Made by a program: the position numbers and the translations under genes. From a virus: a stretch of DNA of 27,975 nucleotides. Positions 21,115 to 27,975 of the stretch are shown one piece after another. The stretch lies in IMG/VR virus record IMGVR_UViG_3300020183_000366, positions 1-27,975 of that record. One strand, 5' to 3'. Each line of letters opens with the position of its first letter. The first letter of the stretch is position 1. The notes under the pieces were generated by a model that saw only the letters and a program-made list of their open reading frames with translations, had not been told where the DNA came from and made no database searches.

Positions 21115-21696
21115 ATGGCGAAACGACTCATCGATAGAATTAAGGAATCCCTTGCGAAATCAGGATACACACCACGTTCCCGTGAGGCTCGTTCGTGGTT
21201 GAAATCCAAAGTTCCGGCACTCAAACCCACTAAGGGTGATCTGATGCGTGACCGTGAACGATTACGAAATCAGTCTATCATTGGTCGTATGTACTTTTAT
21301 TATTATGATCCAAAGACGAAAGATTCGTTGCCATATTACGACAGGTTCCCATTGGTAATTCCAATAGAACGATATTCAGACGGTTTTTTAGGGTTGAACT
21401 TACATTATCTTCACCCAAAGCGACGAATCATTCTTCTCGATAAATTAAGTGTCATATTAAACAATCGTGATTATGACGAAACCACAAGGTTCAGAATCAG
21501 TTATGATTTTCTGAAAAGAGCATCTAAAATTTATGAAGCAACACCGTGTATCAAACGATACTTGTCTGGACATGTTCAATCTAGATTTTTAGAGATAACA
21601 GCCGATGAATGGGACATCGCTGCTCTATTGCCTGTGGAATCTTTTGCCAAAGCAACGGCCAGCAAAGTCTGGTCAGACTCAGAGGATAAATTTTAA
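21115..21696 (+). CDS. 2: DNA end protector gp2-like protein
   Basis: A 193-aa basic protein; T4 gp2 is 274 aa. The block IIGRMYFYYYDPKTKDSLPY, YDRFPLVIPI and GFLGLNLHYLHPKRRIILLD is what is annotated as gp2 DNA end protector in T4-like cyanophages. The N-terminal 50 residues are rich in Arg and Lys (SREARSWLKSKVPALKPTKG), fitting DNA-end contact. T4 gp2 binds the ends of the packaged genome and shields them from RecBCD. The stop overlaps the next gene's ATG by one base. Next to gp4, as in T4. The family name is recalled rather than searched. Confidence 0.68.
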   Translation: MAKRLIDRIKESLAKSGYTPRSREARSWLKSKVPALKPTKGDLMRDRERLRNQSIIGRMYFYYYDPKTKDSLPYYDRFPLVIPIERYSDGFLGLNLHYLHPKRRIILLDKLSVILNNRDYDETTRFRISYDFLKRASKIYEATPCIKRYLSGHVQSRFLEITADEWDIAALLPVESFAKATASKVWSDSEDKF

Positions 21697-22427
21697 TGTC
21701 GTTTTCACCTAATCTATTTCTGTCAAACATAAACAGTAAAGGTGGTCCTGCCCGACCATGCCGTTTTGAAGTCATCATACCGTTACCTGCTTACATTGGT
21801 CAAGCAGTTGGCAATTCTGTATTAGAAAAAATTCTGAACTTTCCAAATTCAGTTTTTAGTGATGTCTCAAGCGCAATCAATCAGGCCCTTGGTACAGGAA
21901 ATGGCAGCAATGGTGCCAATCCAACAGTCTCACGTTTTCTTGCTCTACAGTGTGAAGCAGCAGAACTACCAGGAAGAACACTAGAAACCGCTGACGTAAG
22001 AATCTATGGACCATTATTCAAAGTTCCATATCGTATGCAGTATACAGATACAAACTTTACTTTTATCTGTACAAATGATTTCTATGAAAGAAAATTGTTT
22101 GACCGTTGGATGGATGCAATCATACCACCAGACACCAACAATGTAAGATTTCCAAAAAGCAATGCGTCAAGATATTTGACTAATATAAAAGTCATACAAT
22201 ACGATGATATCGTTCGTCAAATATTTGCTGTTGAATTGATTGACGCATTTCCTGTTGGTATAGCACCACAATCTTTGAGTTGGGGTGATGATGGATTTCA
22301 TCGTTTGTCGGTAAGTTTTGCTTATCAGAGATACAGACCAATATATGAAGGCAACTTTGATATCGGTCAAACATTAGCAACGTTGGGTGCTGGAGCCATT
22401 TCAACGATTGGTAGAAGTATATTTTAA
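21696..22427 (+). CDS. Tail-tube-like protein, probable gp54 baseplate tube initiator
   Basis: A 243-aa protein. Residues about 80-235 have the tube-protein fold pattern: LALQCEAAELPGRTLETADV, YGPLFKVPYRMQYTDTNFTF, YERKLFDRWMDAI and IDAFPVGIAPQSLSWGDDGF with LSVSFAYQRY. This matches gp19-family tube proteins and the related gp54/gp48 initiators. It is longer than T4 gp19 (163 aa) and shorter than gp54 (320 aa). With no sheath gene beside it and the hub chaperone gene gp26 next, the initiator gp54 is the better guess than the main tube protein. Either way it lies on the tube axis. Confidence 0.7.
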   Translation: MSFSPNLFLSNINSKGGPARPCRFEVIIPLPAYIGQAVGNSVLEKILNFPNSVFSDVSSAINQALGTGNGSNGANPTVSRFLALQCEAAELPGRTLETADVRIYGPLFKVPYRMQYTDTNFTFICTNDFYERKLFDRWMDAIIPPDTNNVRFPKSNASRYLTNIKVIQYDDIVRQIFAVELIDAFPVGIAPQSLSWGDDGFHRLSVSFAYQRYRPIYEGNFDIGQTLATLGAGAISTIGRSIF

Positions 22428-22445: not shown

Positions 22446-23177
22446 ATGTTACCTAAACTTGATGTGCCGATTTATTCTGTAAAATTGATTTCAAATGGAA
22501 AAGAAATCAGAATACGTCCGTTTCTTGTAAAAGAACAAAAGCTATTTCTGATGGCAGCAGAAGCAGAGGACTCAAAAGAAACAATCAACACAATTAAGCA
22601 AGTTTTAAAAAATTGTGTTCTAGATGATATTGATATTGATTCTTTACCTACATTTGATCTTGAATATCTGTTCATGAATCTTCGTGCAAGATCGGTAGAA
22701 GAAGTTGTCAATCTCAAATATAAATGTAACAACACTGTAAAAGATGAAAAAGGTGAAGATACTGTCTGTAATGGCACCGTAGAATTTAATGTAAACTTGT
22801 TAGAAATTCAGCCAACAAAACATGCTGAACATTCGAACAAGTTTATGATAAATGAGAAAGTTGGTATTTGTTTGAGATATCCGACATTTGAGGTTGTTCA
22901 AAAGTATGAACAAATGGAAGAAAATGATATTATGGTCAACATTTTAGTTGACTGTATAGATTATCTTTATGATGAAGAACAAATATATTATGCTAAAGAT
23001 TCAACACGCAAAGAACTAGAAGAGTTTGTAGATTCAATGCAACAAAAAGACCTTGAAAAGATTCGTGAGTTTTTTGAAACAATGCCTGAAATTAAAAAAG
23101 AAGTTGATTTCAAATGTCCAAAATGTGGATATGAAGAAAAAATGGAGGTCAAAGGTTTACAAAATTTTTTCGCTTAA
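22446..23177 (+). CDS. 26: Baseplate hub assembly protein gp26-like
   Basis: A 243-aa protein; T4 gp26 is 208 aa. MLPKLDVPIYSVKLISNGKE, IRIRPFLVKEQKLFLMA and LEYLFMNLRARSVEEVVNLK match the T4 baseplate (gp26) family. Four cysteines, C94, C108, C224 and C227 (FKCPKCGYE), form a plausible zinc ribbon, with the last pair at the C-terminus. GAGAGG precedes the ATG. The stop at 23175 directly follows a run of six T in which a -1 shift would continue into the gp51-like frame. In T4, gp26 and gp51 act in hub assembly. Position between a tube-like gene and tape-measure-like genes is also that of tail assembly chaperones. Confidence 0.86.
   Translation: MLPKLDVPIYSVKLISNGKEIRIRPFLVKEQKLFLMAAEAEDSKETINTIKQVLKNCVLDDIDIDSLPTFDLEYLFMNLRARSVEEVVNLKYKCNNTVKDEKGEDTVCNGTVEFNVNLLEIQPTKHAEHSNKFMINEKVGICLRYPTFEVVQKYEQMEENDIMVNILVDCIDYLYDEEQIYYAKDSTRKELEEFVDSMQQKDLEKIREFFETMPEIKKEVDFKCPKCGYEEKMEVKGLQNFFA
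23144..23149 (+). promoter_or_regulatory. Internal Shine-Dalgarno-like sequence before slippery site
   Basis: GGAGGT lies inside the gp26 coding region, 12 bases before the A_AAT_TTT heptamer and 15 before T_TTT_TTC. No start codon in a useful frame follows at normal spacing. An internal Shine-Dalgarno at roughly this distance stimulates -1 frameshifting in E. coli dnaX, so the same role is inferred here. Confidence 0.45.
23162..23171 (+). promoter_or_regulatory. Candidate -1 frameshift slippery site
   Basis: AAATTTTTTC contains two overlapping X_XXY_YYZ heptamers in the gp26 frame: A_AAT_TTT (23162-23168) and T_TTT_TTC (23165-23171). The zero frame stops four bases later (TAA 23175-23177). 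The -1 frame is open for 63 codons to 23362. Confidence 0.65.
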
Positions 23178-23362
23178 TTTTTCGTTATGATACATTGGCA
23201 AACTATTATCAGACAAACTTTGCGATGATGCAGCATCACAAATATAGTTTGACCGAACTTGAAGACATGTTACCTTGGGAAAGAAACATTTACATTACAT
23301 TATTGATTAAGTATTTGGAAGAAGAAAAAGAACGTATTAACGCACAAAAACAAAAACGATAA
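23171..23362 (+). CDS. 51: gp51-like baseplate hub assembly protein, probable -1 frameshift extension of gp26
   Basis: An open frame of 63 codons after the slip point, ending in TAA at 23360-23362. It reads RLIFRYDTLANYYQTNFAMM, then QHHKYSLTELEDMLPWERNI, then a helical tail ending INAQKQKR. The YYQTNF / KYSLTELEDMLPWER block looks like the gp51-type hub assembly proteins of marine T4-like phages, and is far shorter than T4 gp51 (249 aa). No ATG with a ribosome binding site is available: the first ATG (23225) is inside the conserved block and TTG at 23195 has no Shine-Dalgarno. It lies in the -1 frame relative to gp26 exactly at a slippery run, so a gp26-gp51 fusion of about 305 aa is the likely product. 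Its stop overlaps the next ATG by one base. Confidence 0.72.
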   Translation, partial: RLIFRYDTLANYYQTNFAMMQHHKYSLTELEDMLPWERNIYITLLIKYLEEEKERINAQKQKR

Positions 23363-25227
23363 TGGCATTTTTAGACGCATTTAAAAAAGAAAAAAACCCA
23401 AAATCACCAACAAAAGCAGGTGAACAAGTAGAGGGTTCTATTAGCGCAGATATTATACCTTTTTTAAATATCATTGCTAAAAACTCTCTTGCTCTTCCAG
23501 GTATGGCAAAAGACATGAATGTTCTTCGTCAAAATATTGTGAAGTTGGTCAAACTAAAAAATGTTGAAGCTATCACGAAAGCAGATAAGTTCTTCAAAAA
23601 AGAGGATGAACGTGAAGCAGAATTAGAAGCTGCTCGTAAGCAAGAAACTGGACCCAAACCAGAAAGAGAAGGCAAAGCAAAAAAAGAAAAAATGGAAAAG
23701 GGTCGTGAAGAAGAAGGCATACTGAGTGTTCTTTTTGATGTAATTAAAAGTGTTTTAGTTGGTCTGTTTATTGGCTTAGGTCTTGCTTTTGCTAAAGTGT
23801 TTGACTTAGGTAAAATAGTAGCTGGCATTGTTGAAAAATTAAATCCTATGCCTCTCATAGAAGGATTATTCAAAACACTGAAAGAGGGTTGGAAACAAAT
23901 CACCGAAACAGACATAGTAAAAGAAACACTTATCAAAGGATTTGGTAAGTTTTTAAATTTTATTACAGCAGGTTTGTTTGGTGAAAAAGAACTTCGTCGA
24001 TCTTTAGACGATCTAAAAACTTATCTTACACCAATGATGGATGTTTTAGGTGAGACATTTGATAGAGTTGTGGCATGGTTGAAAGATAATGTTGGTTGGG
24101 ATTCTTTTACAATACCACTATCAAAAGCAACAGATTTTTTACCTGATTGGGCTAAATCAAAGTTTTCACTTCCCGACATTAAAATTCCAGGTTTCAGACC
24201 TTTCAAAAACGCAGGAAAGAAAGAGGAAAAGCCAAGTGGTGGAGCAAAAGGTGGTGGCGGTGCTGCTACTCCATCAACATCTACTGAAACATCAAAGACT
24301 ACACCAGAAGCAATGATGCCTGTCGCAGATAAAACATCTGCTCTTGGTATGCCAGCTTTTCCTGCTACAGGTGACAAAACAAAAGATTCTGCTATTCAAG
24401 ATTTCTTTAGTGGTGGTTCATCAGCGTTAGGCTCTGGTGATCCTTCAGCAATGTTTGCTAATATGTTGGCACTCAAAGAAAAATACAAAGATGTTTCTGG
24501 TGCGCCAGCAGCAGCGGGAACAGGAGCAACAGTAAGAGATCCATTAGATAATTTTAAGGGTGCTGCGCCCACACCATCAAAAGCAGCAGAACCAGCACCA
24601 GCGGTTGCGCCAACACCAGCACAAGAACCAGCACAGACAGCGGCAGCACCGACAGCACCTCAGCCCGACAAGATGAGTGATTCGACTCGTAAAGATTACG
24701 TAGAAAAATCGGGAAAAGATTATAAAGGTGCAATTAATTTTATGAAAAGAGTTCTAAGAATTTTACCAAGAGGCAATACTTATGAAAACTTAGACACCGG
24801 CCAAAAATATTCCGAATCTGAAGTTAAAAGTAAAATTAAAGAAGCAGGTGCCGATCCAGATAAAGTTTTAGGTCTAATCAGCGGAAATTCAAAACCTGAC
24901 GGTACAAAATTAGATATATCAAGCGGAAATGTGAACACAGTTACGGGTGGAGCAATCGGTGGTGGTGCCGGTACATCACCGATGCCAATGTCTGGTGGCG
25001 GGTCTTCATCACCATCACCATCACCATCCGCACCAGCATCATCAGGTGCTTCATTATCATCAGCATCTTCAGAGGTAGCAGAAGGCCAAAGAATGGATTC
25101 GGCTGCTAGTGCTGGTGTGTATGTTGATGCTGGTACAGTAAACAGTGGTTCAACTACAACAGGTAAACAACCTAAACAAACTGCTAGTGCCTACAACAGC
25201 GACTTCATCAAGTCATACGCTTCATAA
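23362..25227 (+). CDS. Tape-measure/hub-like structural protein, first of three paralogues
   Basis: A 621-aa protein. The N-terminus carries IPFLNIIAKNSLALPGMAKD followed by MNVLRQNIVKLVKLKNV (residues about 31-68), a motif shared with the next two genes. A Lys/Glu-rich segment (70-115) precedes a hydrophobic stretch at about 119-147 (VLFDVIKSVLVGLFIGLGLA). Residues about 285-450 and 540-600 are Ala/Pro/Ser/Gly-rich and probably disordered, including a short SPSPSP run from a TCACCA DNA repeat. A globular segment near 455-515 has YVEKSGKDYKGAINFMKRVL. The start overlaps the gp51-like stop. Location after the gp26/gp51 pair and the hydrophobic-plus-linker layout suggest a tube-lumen or hub protein; no T4 protein is clearly matched. 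Confidence 0.78.
   Translation: MAFLDAFKKEKNPKSPTKAGEQVEGSISADIIPFLNIIAKNSLALPGMAKDMNVLRQNIVKLVKLKNVEAITKADKFFKKEDEREAELEAARKQETGPKPEREGKAKKEKMEKGREEEGILSVLFDVIKSVLVGLFIGLGLAFAKVFDLGKIVAGIVEKLNPMPLIEGLFKTLKEGWKQITETDIVKETLIKGFGKFLNFITAGLFGEKELRRSLDDLKTYLTPMMDVLGETFDRVVAWLKDNVGWDSFTIPLSKATDFLPDWAKSKFSLPDIKIPGFRPFKNAGKKEEKPSGGAKGGGGAATPSTSTETSKTTPEAMMPVADKTSALGMPAFPATGDKTKDSAIQDFFSGGSSALGSGDPSAMFANMLALKEKYKDVSGAPAAAGTGATVRDPLDNFKGAAPTPSKAAEPAPAVAPTPAQEPAQTAAAPTAPQPDKMSDSTRKDYVEKSGKDYKGAINFMKRVLRILPRGNTYENLDTGQKYSESEVKSKIKEAGADPDKVLGLISGNSKPDGTKLDISSGNVNTVTGGAIGGGAGTSPMPMSGGGSSSPSPSPSAPASSGASLSSASSEVAEGQRMDSAASAGVYVDAGTVNSGSTTTGKQPKQTASAYNSDFIKSYAS
25009..25027 (+). repeat. Short TCACCA tandem repeat
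   Basis: About three copies of TCACCA inside the 621-aa gene encode an SPSPSP run in a Ser/Pro/Gly-rich linker. Such a run can change length by slippage without shifting the frame. Confidence 0.7.
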
Positions 25228-25229
25228 AA

Positions 25230-27470
25230 ATGTTATCGAATCTGCTAGGTCTTACAATAGATAAGGGTGACCTAAACAAATCATCTCCTTCTCCTGTAGT
25301 AAGCACACTCAAAAAAACAGCAATTAACTACCTTGCCATTGGTAAAATGGCAGAGGATTTGAAGTTAATTAAACTAAACTTCTCCCATTACTTAGCAATG
25401 GAAGGTGTAAAAGTCAAAGACACACCCGACATGCACTTTCTCAAAGATGATGAACGTACAAAGAAGTTCAATGTTCTACGTGAAAAACATGTACAATCAA
25501 AAATGTCAGCGGGCGCCAAAGACGGCACTAGTGGTAACAAAGGATGGGCTAAAAATCTAATTAAAGGATTTATCAATTATAAGGTTACAAAAAAGTTTGA
25601 AAGAAATCTTTCAGCAGCAATACTAAAGAAATACAGAAAACTTACTTTGATTCGAAAGATGATTCGTTTCAAACGTAAGTTGACAATTGGTCTGAACAAG
25701 CTGCTTGGAAAACTAAACATCAAAAAGATGTTTCTGGATTGGTTCAAGACTAATTCACAAAAAATACTAAAGCCTTTGACCGAAATGTTTACAAACGCTA
25801 TAAAACGTTTTGTGAAAAAAGGTTTGACAAAACTCATTCAACGAGCAACAGTTTCAATATTAGCATCAGTTTTTGCTGGTCCCTTTGCGCCGATTGTTGC
25901 TGGTGTTATTTTACTAGGACTTGTATTATGGGAGCCAGTAAAAGAAGCATGGGAAGCATACACAAAAGGTAAAGATTTTATTGACACTTTCATTGTCAGT
26001 GTAATTGATTCTATTACGTTTGGTATATTTGGTAAAGACAACATCAAAAATTTTAAAGATGCGATTGCTGGCTGGTTTGATACAATGTCAAGAAAAGTGT
26101 TTGAAACGATAGACGAATCTATAAAATATATTAAAGAAAAAACAACAAAGTTCACAGACTTTCTTATCAATAAAGGCAAAGCATTACTTACACCTAATGA
26201 TACACCAGAAAAATTCACATCAGCTCTTGATGAACTGAATGCCAAAAAAGCACAAGAACATAATGAGATGTTAGAAAAGTACAACAAGTATTTTGAAGAG
26301 ATGAATGAAAATATTGAATACATCCAAATTAGAATTGCTCAATTAAAAGTTGAAATTGCTGTATTAGAAAACGAAATTAAATCTTTTGTCGAAGGTCCAG
26401 AAAAGGCTCGTCTGAAAGAAGCTAAAATAGAAAAAGCAAAAGAAGAACTCAAACTTGCGAAACTTCAAAAAGAACAAAGTAAAGAAGCTCAAGTTGGAGA
26501 TTATGTAGCAGAAGAAAAATCTAAGAAAACAACAGCGCCTATATCAAAACCAGCACCAACATCAGTGCCGGCGTCAGAGTCTAAAGCGACTGCAAAACCT
26601 GCACCAGCACCGCCTCCGCCAACACCTCAGCCACCCGCATCTATGCCAAAATCAACAACTGTATCTTTAGGAAAAGAACCAGTTGTTTTGCCAACAGAAA
26701 AAGTTGCCATGGCAATAGAAAAAGCATCTAGACTTGTTGGAGTGGATACGGCATTGATGTACGCCATAGCAAAACAAGAAAGTGCTTTTAATCCTGAAGC
26801 AAAAGCAAAAGGAACTACTGCTAAAGGTTTATTTCAGTTTATTAAAGGCACTTGGGAAGGAATGGTCAAAACTTATGGAAACAAGTTTCCAATTTTAAAA
26901 GAAAGGGATGCACTTGATCCCGAAGCGAATGCTTTGGCTGGAGCATTATACATTAAAGAAAATGCTGACATTTTATCTAAAGCAAAAATTGCTGTTGATG
27001 CTACTTCAATATATGCCGCACACTTCTTGGGTTCAAGTGGAGCAAAAAAACTGTTTTCTTTAAAATCATCTGAAATCGCCGCAGAAAAAATGCCAGATGC
27101 GGCAAAAGCCAACAAATCAGTTTTTTATAAAACAGATGAAAAAGGAAAACCTAAATTAGATGAACCCAAAACTGCCTCTGAAGTCATTGAATTTTTATTC
27201 AAAAAAGTTGGCCAATATCAAGGAGTGTATGCTGCTATTTTACCTAAAGGCACTTCAACACAACTTGCTTCAACTGATCCAACAAACAGTAAAATTATAG
27301 ATCAAAATTCTAAACAAGTGGCACAAGCACAAAGAGAACAATTAAAACCTAAAGATATAAATGTCGCAGACGTAAGTAAAACGAATAACGTAAAGAAAAC
27401 AAACTATCAAAACGTTGCCATGGGTGACGAACCAGATTTAGGTGTTGAAATGGCAAGAAGAGCAACATAA
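25230..27470 (+). CDS. Tape-measure/hub-like protein with lytic transglycosylase (SLT) domain
   Basis: A 746-aa protein. The N-terminus has INYLAIGKMAEDLKLIKLNF, parallel to the motif in the flanking genes. Residues about 105-205 are strongly basic. Residues about 208-235 are a hydrophobic segment (ILASVFAGPFAPIVAGVILL). Residues about 330-425 are coiled coil, and 435-480 a Pro/Ala linker. Residues about 490-620 are an SLT lytic transglycosylase: LMYAIAKQESAFNPEAKAKG with catalytic E517, then AKGLFQFIKGTWEGM, DPEANALAGALYI and IYAAHFLGSSGAKKLF. These enzymes cleave the MurNAc-GlcNAc bond of peptidoglycan. Tape-measure proteins of many phages carry such domains to open the wall during DNA entry. 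It starts two bases after the previous stop. This probably supplies the wall-cutting activity missing from the spike. Confidence 0.87.
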   Translation: MLSNLLGLTIDKGDLNKSSPSPVVSTLKKTAINYLAIGKMAEDLKLIKLNFSHYLAMEGVKVKDTPDMHFLKDDERTKKFNVLREKHVQSKMSAGAKDGTSGNKGWAKNLIKGFINYKVTKKFERNLSAAILKKYRKLTLIRKMIRFKRKLTIGLNKLLGKLNIKKMFLDWFKTNSQKILKPLTEMFTNAIKRFVKKGLTKLIQRATVSILASVFAGPFAPIVAGVILLGLVLWEPVKEAWEAYTKGKDFIDTFIVSVIDSITFGIFGKDNIKNFKDAIAGWFDTMSRKVFETIDESIKYIKEKTTKFTDFLINKGKALLTPNDTPEKFTSALDELNAKKAQEHNEMLEKYNKYFEEMNENIEYIQIRIAQLKVEIAVLENEIKSFVEGPEKARLKEAKIEKAKEELKLAKLQKEQSKEAQVGDYVAEEKSKKTTAPISKPAPTSVPASESKATAKPAPAPPPPTPQPPASMPKSTTVSLGKEPVVLPTEKVAMAIEKASRLVGVDTALMYAIAKQESAFNPEAKAKGTTAKGLFQFIKGTWEGMVKTYGNKFPILKERDALDPEANALAGALYIKENADILSKAKIAVDATSIYAAHFLGSSGAKKLFSLKSSEIAAEKMPDAAKANKSVFYKTDEKGKPKLDEPKTASEVIEFLFKKVGQYQGVYAAILPKGTSTQLASTDPTNSKIIDQNSKQVAQAQREQLKPKDINVADVSKTNNVKKTNYQNVAMGDEPDLGVEMARRAT

Positions 27471-27975
27471 TGTTAGACAAACTTTTCAACAAAAAAGATC
27501 CGAAGAGTAAAGTCACAAAAGCAGAAGATACAAAGAAAGGTGTATCTTCAATGCGTATTATTGCCAAAGAAACTCTAATGTTTCCTTCAATGGCAAAACA
27601 ACTCAGGTCTTTGAGTAATGTGTTTGCTCGTTATGTAAAATTACACAACATCAGACCTGCCACACCCGGTTCTATTTCTGATGTAAAAAAGTCTCTGTCC
27701 GAATCAAAAGAAATAAAAGTTGCCAGCATCAAAGTAAAAAAATATGGCACAGAAAAAAAGAAAACTTTTTTAGCAGGAATACTTGATAGCATTATTACAA
27801 TCATCAAAGGTTTAATTATTGGAACTTTGTTAGCTGGTGGTTATATTGTTTACAAATTGATTGAAATTATAACTCCTTATGTCGAAAGTCTAATGGCCAA
27901 AGCAGAAGAAGGTATAACTTTTATTTCCGACGGCATAAAAAACTTCTATGAAAATGTAAATTGGTTAGATTTGTT
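27470..27975 (+). CDS. Tape-measure/hub-like protein, third paralogue (3'-partial)
   Basis: The ATG overlaps the previous stop by one base (TAATG), and 168 codons run open to the window end. The N-terminus MLDKLFNKKDPKSKVTKAED resembles that of the 621-aa protein (MAFLDAFKKEKNPKSPTKAG). MRIIAKETLMFPSMAKQLRS with ARYVKLHNI matches its IIAKNSLALPGMAKD and KLVKLKNV. A hydrophobic segment follows (IITIIKGLIIGTLLAGGYIV, residues about 108-130), again as in the first paralogue. It is a virion structural protein of the same set; the remainder and any enzymatic domain lie outside the window. Confidence 0.82.
   Translation, partial: MLDKLFNKKDPKSKVTKAEDTKKGVSSMRIIAKETLMFPSMAKQLRSLSNVFARYVKLHNIRPATPGSISDVKKSLSESKEIKVASIKVKKYGTEKKKTFLAGILDSIITIIKGLIIGTLLAGGYIVYKLIEIITPYVESLMAKAEEGITFISDGIKNFYENVNWLDL

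Follow-up and report, generated by a model that had tools for sequence, protein, structure and literature searches.

Organization of the gp26-gp51 locus

The window, i.e. the whole 27,975-nucleotide stretch of DNA analyzed here, corresponds to positions 1-27,975 of the IMG/VR record IMGVR_UViG_3300020183_000366, and the preliminary description of it focused on positions 23144-23362. All features described below are on the + strand. The gp26 gene (22446-23177), which matches PF12322 and phrog_150, encodes in the zero frame a 243-aa protein, the putative short form (TAC-N). It is preceded by a gene for a gp19-like tail tube protein (21696-22427; phrog_45 tail tube, 1.4e-35), which agrees with the earlier placement of gp26 after a tube-type gene. 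The 3' end of gp26 reads GGT TTA CAA AAT TTT TTC GCT TAA and contains the slippery heptamer T_TTT_TTC in zero-frame phase (23165-23171), with the stop codon TAA (23175-23177) one codon past it. The -1 frame, whose codons start at 23171, is open for 63 codons and ends with TAA at 23360-23362; this region (23171-23362) encodes the gp51 or TAC-C domain, which matches phrog_634 and the C-terminal part of phrog_150. If C23171 is read a second time, the next codon is CGC and 63 residues are added; the predicted gp26-gp51 fusion is 242 + 63 = 305 aa. The coordinates confirmed the end of gp26, the open -1 frame and the products of 243 and about 305 aa given in the preliminary description.

The downstream neighbor (23362-25227, 621 aa) has an ATG that overlaps the gp51 stop. 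No family match was found for its product in Pfam and PHROG profile scans; it is possibly a tape-measure or tail-interior protein. Among the long genes downstream of gp51, one has an SLT domain and the tape-measure matches are weak (best phrog_9570, 2.3e-4). The N-terminal 65-70 residues encoded by 23362-25227 match the products of the next two genes, 25230-27470 and 27470-27975 (blastp 8e-8 and 4e-5), and this likeness among three consecutive genes suggests tandem paralogues encoding tape-measure or tail-interior proteins. The middle gene, 25230-27470, encodes the SLT transglycosylase domain.

Family assignment and predicted fold

Profile searches assigned both reading frames to T4-type families. 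The gp26 product matched PF12322 (T4_baseplate) over residues 8-243 at 1.1e-61 (208.7 bits, cut-off 24.5) and is a full-length member of phrog_150 (baseplate hub, 2e-68), while the -1 product belongs to phrog_634 (baseplate hub assembly catalyst, gp51; 1.3e-27) and also matches positions 230-279 of phrog_150 (4.1e-8). No match to a lambda-type Phage_TAC profile was found in a Pfam scan to E = 1, which returned PF12322 and chance matches only. The sole PDB matches of the gp26 profile, weak ones to MtrB (E 0.009 and 0.027), were taken as chance.

In the AlphaFold2 model of gp26 (pLDDT 87.5), residues 1-87 are nearest to tail assembly chaperone folds. The first Foldseek match in the PDB was the HK97 tail assembly chaperone gp13 (2ob9), with an E of only 0.7, and VIA-align of residues 1-93 placed YqbN (3klu), RBSTP2171 (3fgx) and 2ob9 at the top with Z scores of 7.5-7.6, the next being 4.8. 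In BFVD, the model matched gp26-like proteins from many myoviruses. The modeled N-terminal fold is thus suggestive of a resemblance to HK97 gp13 and two prophage proteins, the scores being modest and not proof.

Conservation of the slippery heptamer

The alignment of homologous junctions called for in the preliminary description was carried out on 158 distinct junctions. These came from uncultured relatives as well as from cyanophages and further T4-like phages, and span 30-100% protein identity. The heptamer and the -1 phase were constant: an in-phase T_TTT_TT[C/T/G] was present in 158/158 junctions (TTC in 155, TTT in two and TTG in one), the gp51 frame was -1 in every one, and the gp26 stop was located one codon past the heptamer in 157. 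TTT TTC was observed 155 times versus 33 expected, and the codon before the TTT of the heptamer ended in T in all 158 junctions versus 95 expected from synonymous usage, counts which overstate the significance because the sequences are related and not independent. The residue encoded ahead of TTT TTC varies (N, S, D, A or G), the codons being AAT (65), AGT (44), TCT (32), GAT (8), GCT (7) and GGT (2). Given the 30%-100% spread in identity, unselected common descent is unlikely to be the cause of the invariant third positions. The slip site is, on this comparative evidence, under nucleotide-level selection.

In the close relatives, 80 IMG/VR sequences at 70-100% identity, TTT TTC followed by one codon, the stop, and gp51 in the -1 frame was found without exception. 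Among 61 distinct members of the window clade, codons 240-242 (AAT TTT TTC) had a pairwise codon identity of 1.00 versus 0.57 expected, and AAT, TTT and TTC were unchanged wherever the residue is kept; all four Gly codons are used in the clade for Gly237, a few codons before the slip site. The in-phase heptamer was found in the cyanophages S-CAM1, P-RSM6, S-ShM2, P-HM1, Syn33 and ACG-2014a/d/e/f, as well as in Caulobacter Cr30, Sinorhizobium phiM12, Delftia phiW-14, Stenotrophomonas Ps15, Rhizobium Y68, the KVP40-like ValKK3, Aeromonas CC2, Vibrio Bakedbeans and 85 further IMG/VR loci. Comparison of gp6 places Melnitz and HTVC008M among the nearest named relatives; both have T_TTT_TTT with TAA immediately after it and gp51 in -1. 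IMG/VR scans with gp26 of Cr30, ValKK3 and phiW-14 yielded one or two loci per query.

Two slippery heptamers had been proposed in the preliminary description. T_TTT_TTC was borne out in all 158 junctions; the overlapping A_AAT_TTT (23162-23168), slippery in principle, is present in the stated phase in the window but is not conserved, and it was ruled out as the slip site since the preceding codon varies across the 158 junctions (AGT, TCT, GCT and GAT also occur).

Homopolymer runs are error-prone, and a sequencing error or assembly artefact could have split what is truly a single gp26-gp51 frame. This explanation, to which a negligible probability was assigned, is refuted by the -1 relation itself, which recurs in all 158 distinct junctions, drawn both from numerous metagenomes and from finished phage genomes.

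Translation of the -1 frame

Nucleotide diversity of the -1 region in the window clade was 0.158, 0.048 and 0.308 at the first, second and third codon positions; this coding-type pattern indicates that the gp51 region is translated in the -1 frame. As had been described earlier, the frame has no plausible start of its own. The sole start-type codon near the -1 junction, TTG at 23195-23197, was rejected as the gp51 start, because it is TTG in only 5/55 close relatives, the others having TTA, CTG, CTA or CTC. In the window clade, the region around the junction has neither an ATG nor a conserved GTG or TTG, and cyanophages have no conserved one there either. An ATG first becomes common at -1 codon 20, within the conserved domain. 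Judged from these codons, the gp51 domain in the window would be reached only via a frameshift.

The alternative that gp51 is a separate protein, made from a non-ATG start or by re-initiation past the gp26 stop (translational coupling), is improbable for the window. It draws on the codon-20 ATG, which is present in 50 of the 55 close relatives, but a start there would remove the conserved N-terminal block, and in the window clade a junction-near ATG is absent and GTG/TTG codons are unconserved. It also draws on Cr30, phiW-14, Ps15, ValKK3, K474 and RHph_Y68, in which the gp51 ATG overlaps the gp26 stop in the gp51 frame (TRATG). Candidate separate gp51 ATGs, named in the preliminary description, together with a ribosome binding site, as evidence against a frameshift, occur in these distant relatives; the window clade has none near the junction. 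Furthermore, separate translation leaves the invariant phased T_TTT_TTC unexplained, and the heptamer is kept in most TRATG phages as well. All of these TRATG phages except K474 retain the slip site, and so could make gp51 in free form as well as within a fusion.

In the deposited records of S-CAM1, ACG-2014e, ACG-2014d, CC2, ACG-2014a and Syn33, gp51 is unannotated or its start is placed downstream of the point where the conserved domain begins, because the frameshift was not annotated. Within the -1 frame, synonymous conservation was raised in the window clade at codons 13-18 and 25-30 (23207-23260 in the window); these two segments can pair (CAAACT with AGTTTG), without covariation, and the pattern was not seen in cyanophages.

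Sequence elements flanking the slip site

Comparison of the 158 junctions revealed a conserved Shine-Dalgarno (SD)-like element, GAGGG/AAGGG, 9 nt upstream of the heptamer. For the 8-mer that ends 9 nt before the heptamer, the anti-SD duplex energy averaged -5.6 kcal/mol. Over the rest of the 120 nt upstream it was +1.8 to -1.8 kcal/mol, except for -5.3 at the adjoining position -6, where the 8-mer overlaps this element too. At the Glu codon of this element, GAG and GAA were used in a ratio of 70:19, versus 7:33 where Glu-Gly pairs occur elsewhere in these genes. In the window, the conserved position is occupied by a weak AAAGG (23151-23155), which ends 9 nt before the heptamer. The stronger GGAGGT (23144-23149; anti-SD energy about -10), 15 nt before T_TTT_TTC, is indeed present as noted earlier, but it is peculiar to the window and missing at the same place in relatives, so that the role of stimulator suggested for it passes to the purine-rich element 9 nt upstream as the conserved candidate.

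No conserved downstream stem-loop or pseudoknot was found by RNAalifold in the window clade or in cyanophages, the former giving just one distant, nearly non-covarying hairpin and the latter nothing. Single-sequence folding z-scores were -1.5 to -1.8 versus -0.3 to -0.8 in controls, which is mildly low and not convincing. The SD-like element and the stop one codon on are the likely stimulators of the frameshift.

Transcriptional slippage on the T run, which would generate mRNAs joining both frames, is even less probable than separate translation of gp51. The junction does contain a run of six Ts, and six is short for efficient slippage by RNA polymerase; the phase of the heptamer, the fixed distance of the SD-like element and the nearby stop all indicate the ribosome.

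Proposed mechanism

We propose, with a probability of about 0.93, that gp26-gp51 is the tail assembly chaperone gene of an uncultured marine or freshwater T4-like phage and is expressed in part by frameshifting. The -1 frameshift joining gp26 to gp51, as first put forward in the preliminary description, is supported by the 158/158 in-phase heptamers and the constant -1 position of gp51. Most ribosomes would terminate at the gp26 stop and yield the 243-aa TAC-N. In a minority, the tRNA-Phe molecules in the P and A sites on U_UUU_UUC would re-pair one base back (UUU, UUU), and the slipped ribosomes would read CGC next and produce the 305-aa gp26-gp51 long form, TAC-NC. Production of the fusion, like its rate, is a prediction. 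By analogy with lambda G and GT, the two forms may act as chaperones of the tape measure protein and bring in the tail tube.

A broader and more tentative proposal, which we rate at somewhat below even odds, is that T4-like phages share a fixed TAC cassette consisting of the SD-like GAGGG/AAGGG, 9 nt, T_TTT_TTC, one codon and the stop, without downstream RNA structure, and that in several lineages a TRATG-enabled free gp51 is added to give three products per gene. The fixed cassette with its SD-like element may be previously undescribed, as may the dual output from slip site and TRATG.

Relationship to T4 genes 26 and 51

The hub assembly chaperones listed for T4 include gp26 and gp51, the latter being required for assembly and missing from the particle (PMC3004832). 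Window gp26 matches PF12322 over its length, and T4/T2 gp51 matches PF12322 and carries the gp51 C-terminal domain in addition. T2 gp51 matched PF12322 over residues 1-201 (4.3e-55) and phrog_150 over residues 3-248 (7.1e-88). In hhalign comparisons, the frameshift fusion aligned end to end with T4-type gp51 (242 columns, probability 99.1, E 5e-19), and its alignment with T4-type gp26 extended as far as the slip point; thus T4-type gp51 corresponds to the fused long form and gp26 to the short form. The earlier statement that gp26 and gp51 are separate genes in T4 is correct, and the two are divergently oriented neighbors in T4-type genomes, but T4 gp51 is more than the downstream domain, since it comprises a whole gp26-like protein plus the gp51 domain, so that in T4 a second gene supplies the long form. 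T4 has two genes without a slip site, whereas the window has one gene and a probable frameshift.

Copy numbers follow the same division. PF12322 was single copy in every slip-site genome examined, and two copies were found only in T4, T2, Klebsiella Mineola, Aeromonas AhMtk13a and Acinetobacter Acj61, where the slip site is absent and the second copy is a gp26+gp51 fusion. One copy without an intact slip site was found in the Ackermannviridae S118, ECML-4 and FKP10 and in Vibrio K474, in which the site is degenerate. The ends of gp26 in S118, ECML-4 and FKP10 read GAG/GAA ATT TTC ATT TAA TTTTTGAAATTG, with a degenerate slip site, and these phages keep a gp51-like domain in -1, without an ATG, next to a single gp26 copy.

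Comparison with known systems

The reading of gp26 and gp51 as a tail assembly chaperone pair gained comparative support, and the idea is already published. Vladimirov, Gautam and Davidson (Virology 2022, 566:9-15) reportedly identified T4-like tail assembly chaperone genes in the same gp26/gp51 pair, and are said to have found frameshifting conserved in several T4-like groups and separate genes in the T4 group. In the passages that cite it, this work is credited with T4-like phages that have a short gene and a long fusion gene without frameshifting (PMC10885494) and with poly-T slippery sequences in T4-like TAC-N genes (PMC12846349). As far as these citing accounts go, the main inference of the preliminary description therefore agrees with published work, with reportedly the same gene pair and a poly-T frameshift signal in TAC-N; the window differs in representing an uncultured clade whose nearest named relatives are at about 40% (gp6, gp26). 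It is a further example of a published T4-like chaperone, of a known kind of mechanism.

This example places a large uncultured clade of marine and freshwater T4-like phages among those making tail chaperones by frameshift, and gives independent support to single-copy frameshifting and the T4 two-gene state as alternative solutions. It also provides a guide for annotating gp26/gp51, as several of the deposited genomes examined miss gp51 or give it a false short start, and the fixed cassette including the SD-like element makes the mechanism easily testable in E. coli.

As in E. coli dnaX, where an SD-like element lies about 10 nt upstream of the slippery heptamer, the junctions studied here carry such an element; dnaX differs in its heptamer and in its downstream hairpin, the conserved counterpart of which was not found in the relatives of the window. 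Like lambda G/GT, the window gene is located just downstream of the tail tube gene and is predicted to give a short product and, through a -1 shift close to where the short frame ends, a long one; the modeled gp26 N-terminal fold may also resemble that of HK97 gp13. Unlike lambda, gp26 has no lambda-type TAC family match, the tail is contractile and T4-like, and the slip sequence is another one, that of lambda being G_GGA_AAG. Mu gp41/gp42 provides a frameshift-made tail chaperone in a contractile-tailed phage, a likeness to the window. The Mu shift is -2 (PMC5009743), unlike the predicted -1 shift of the window.
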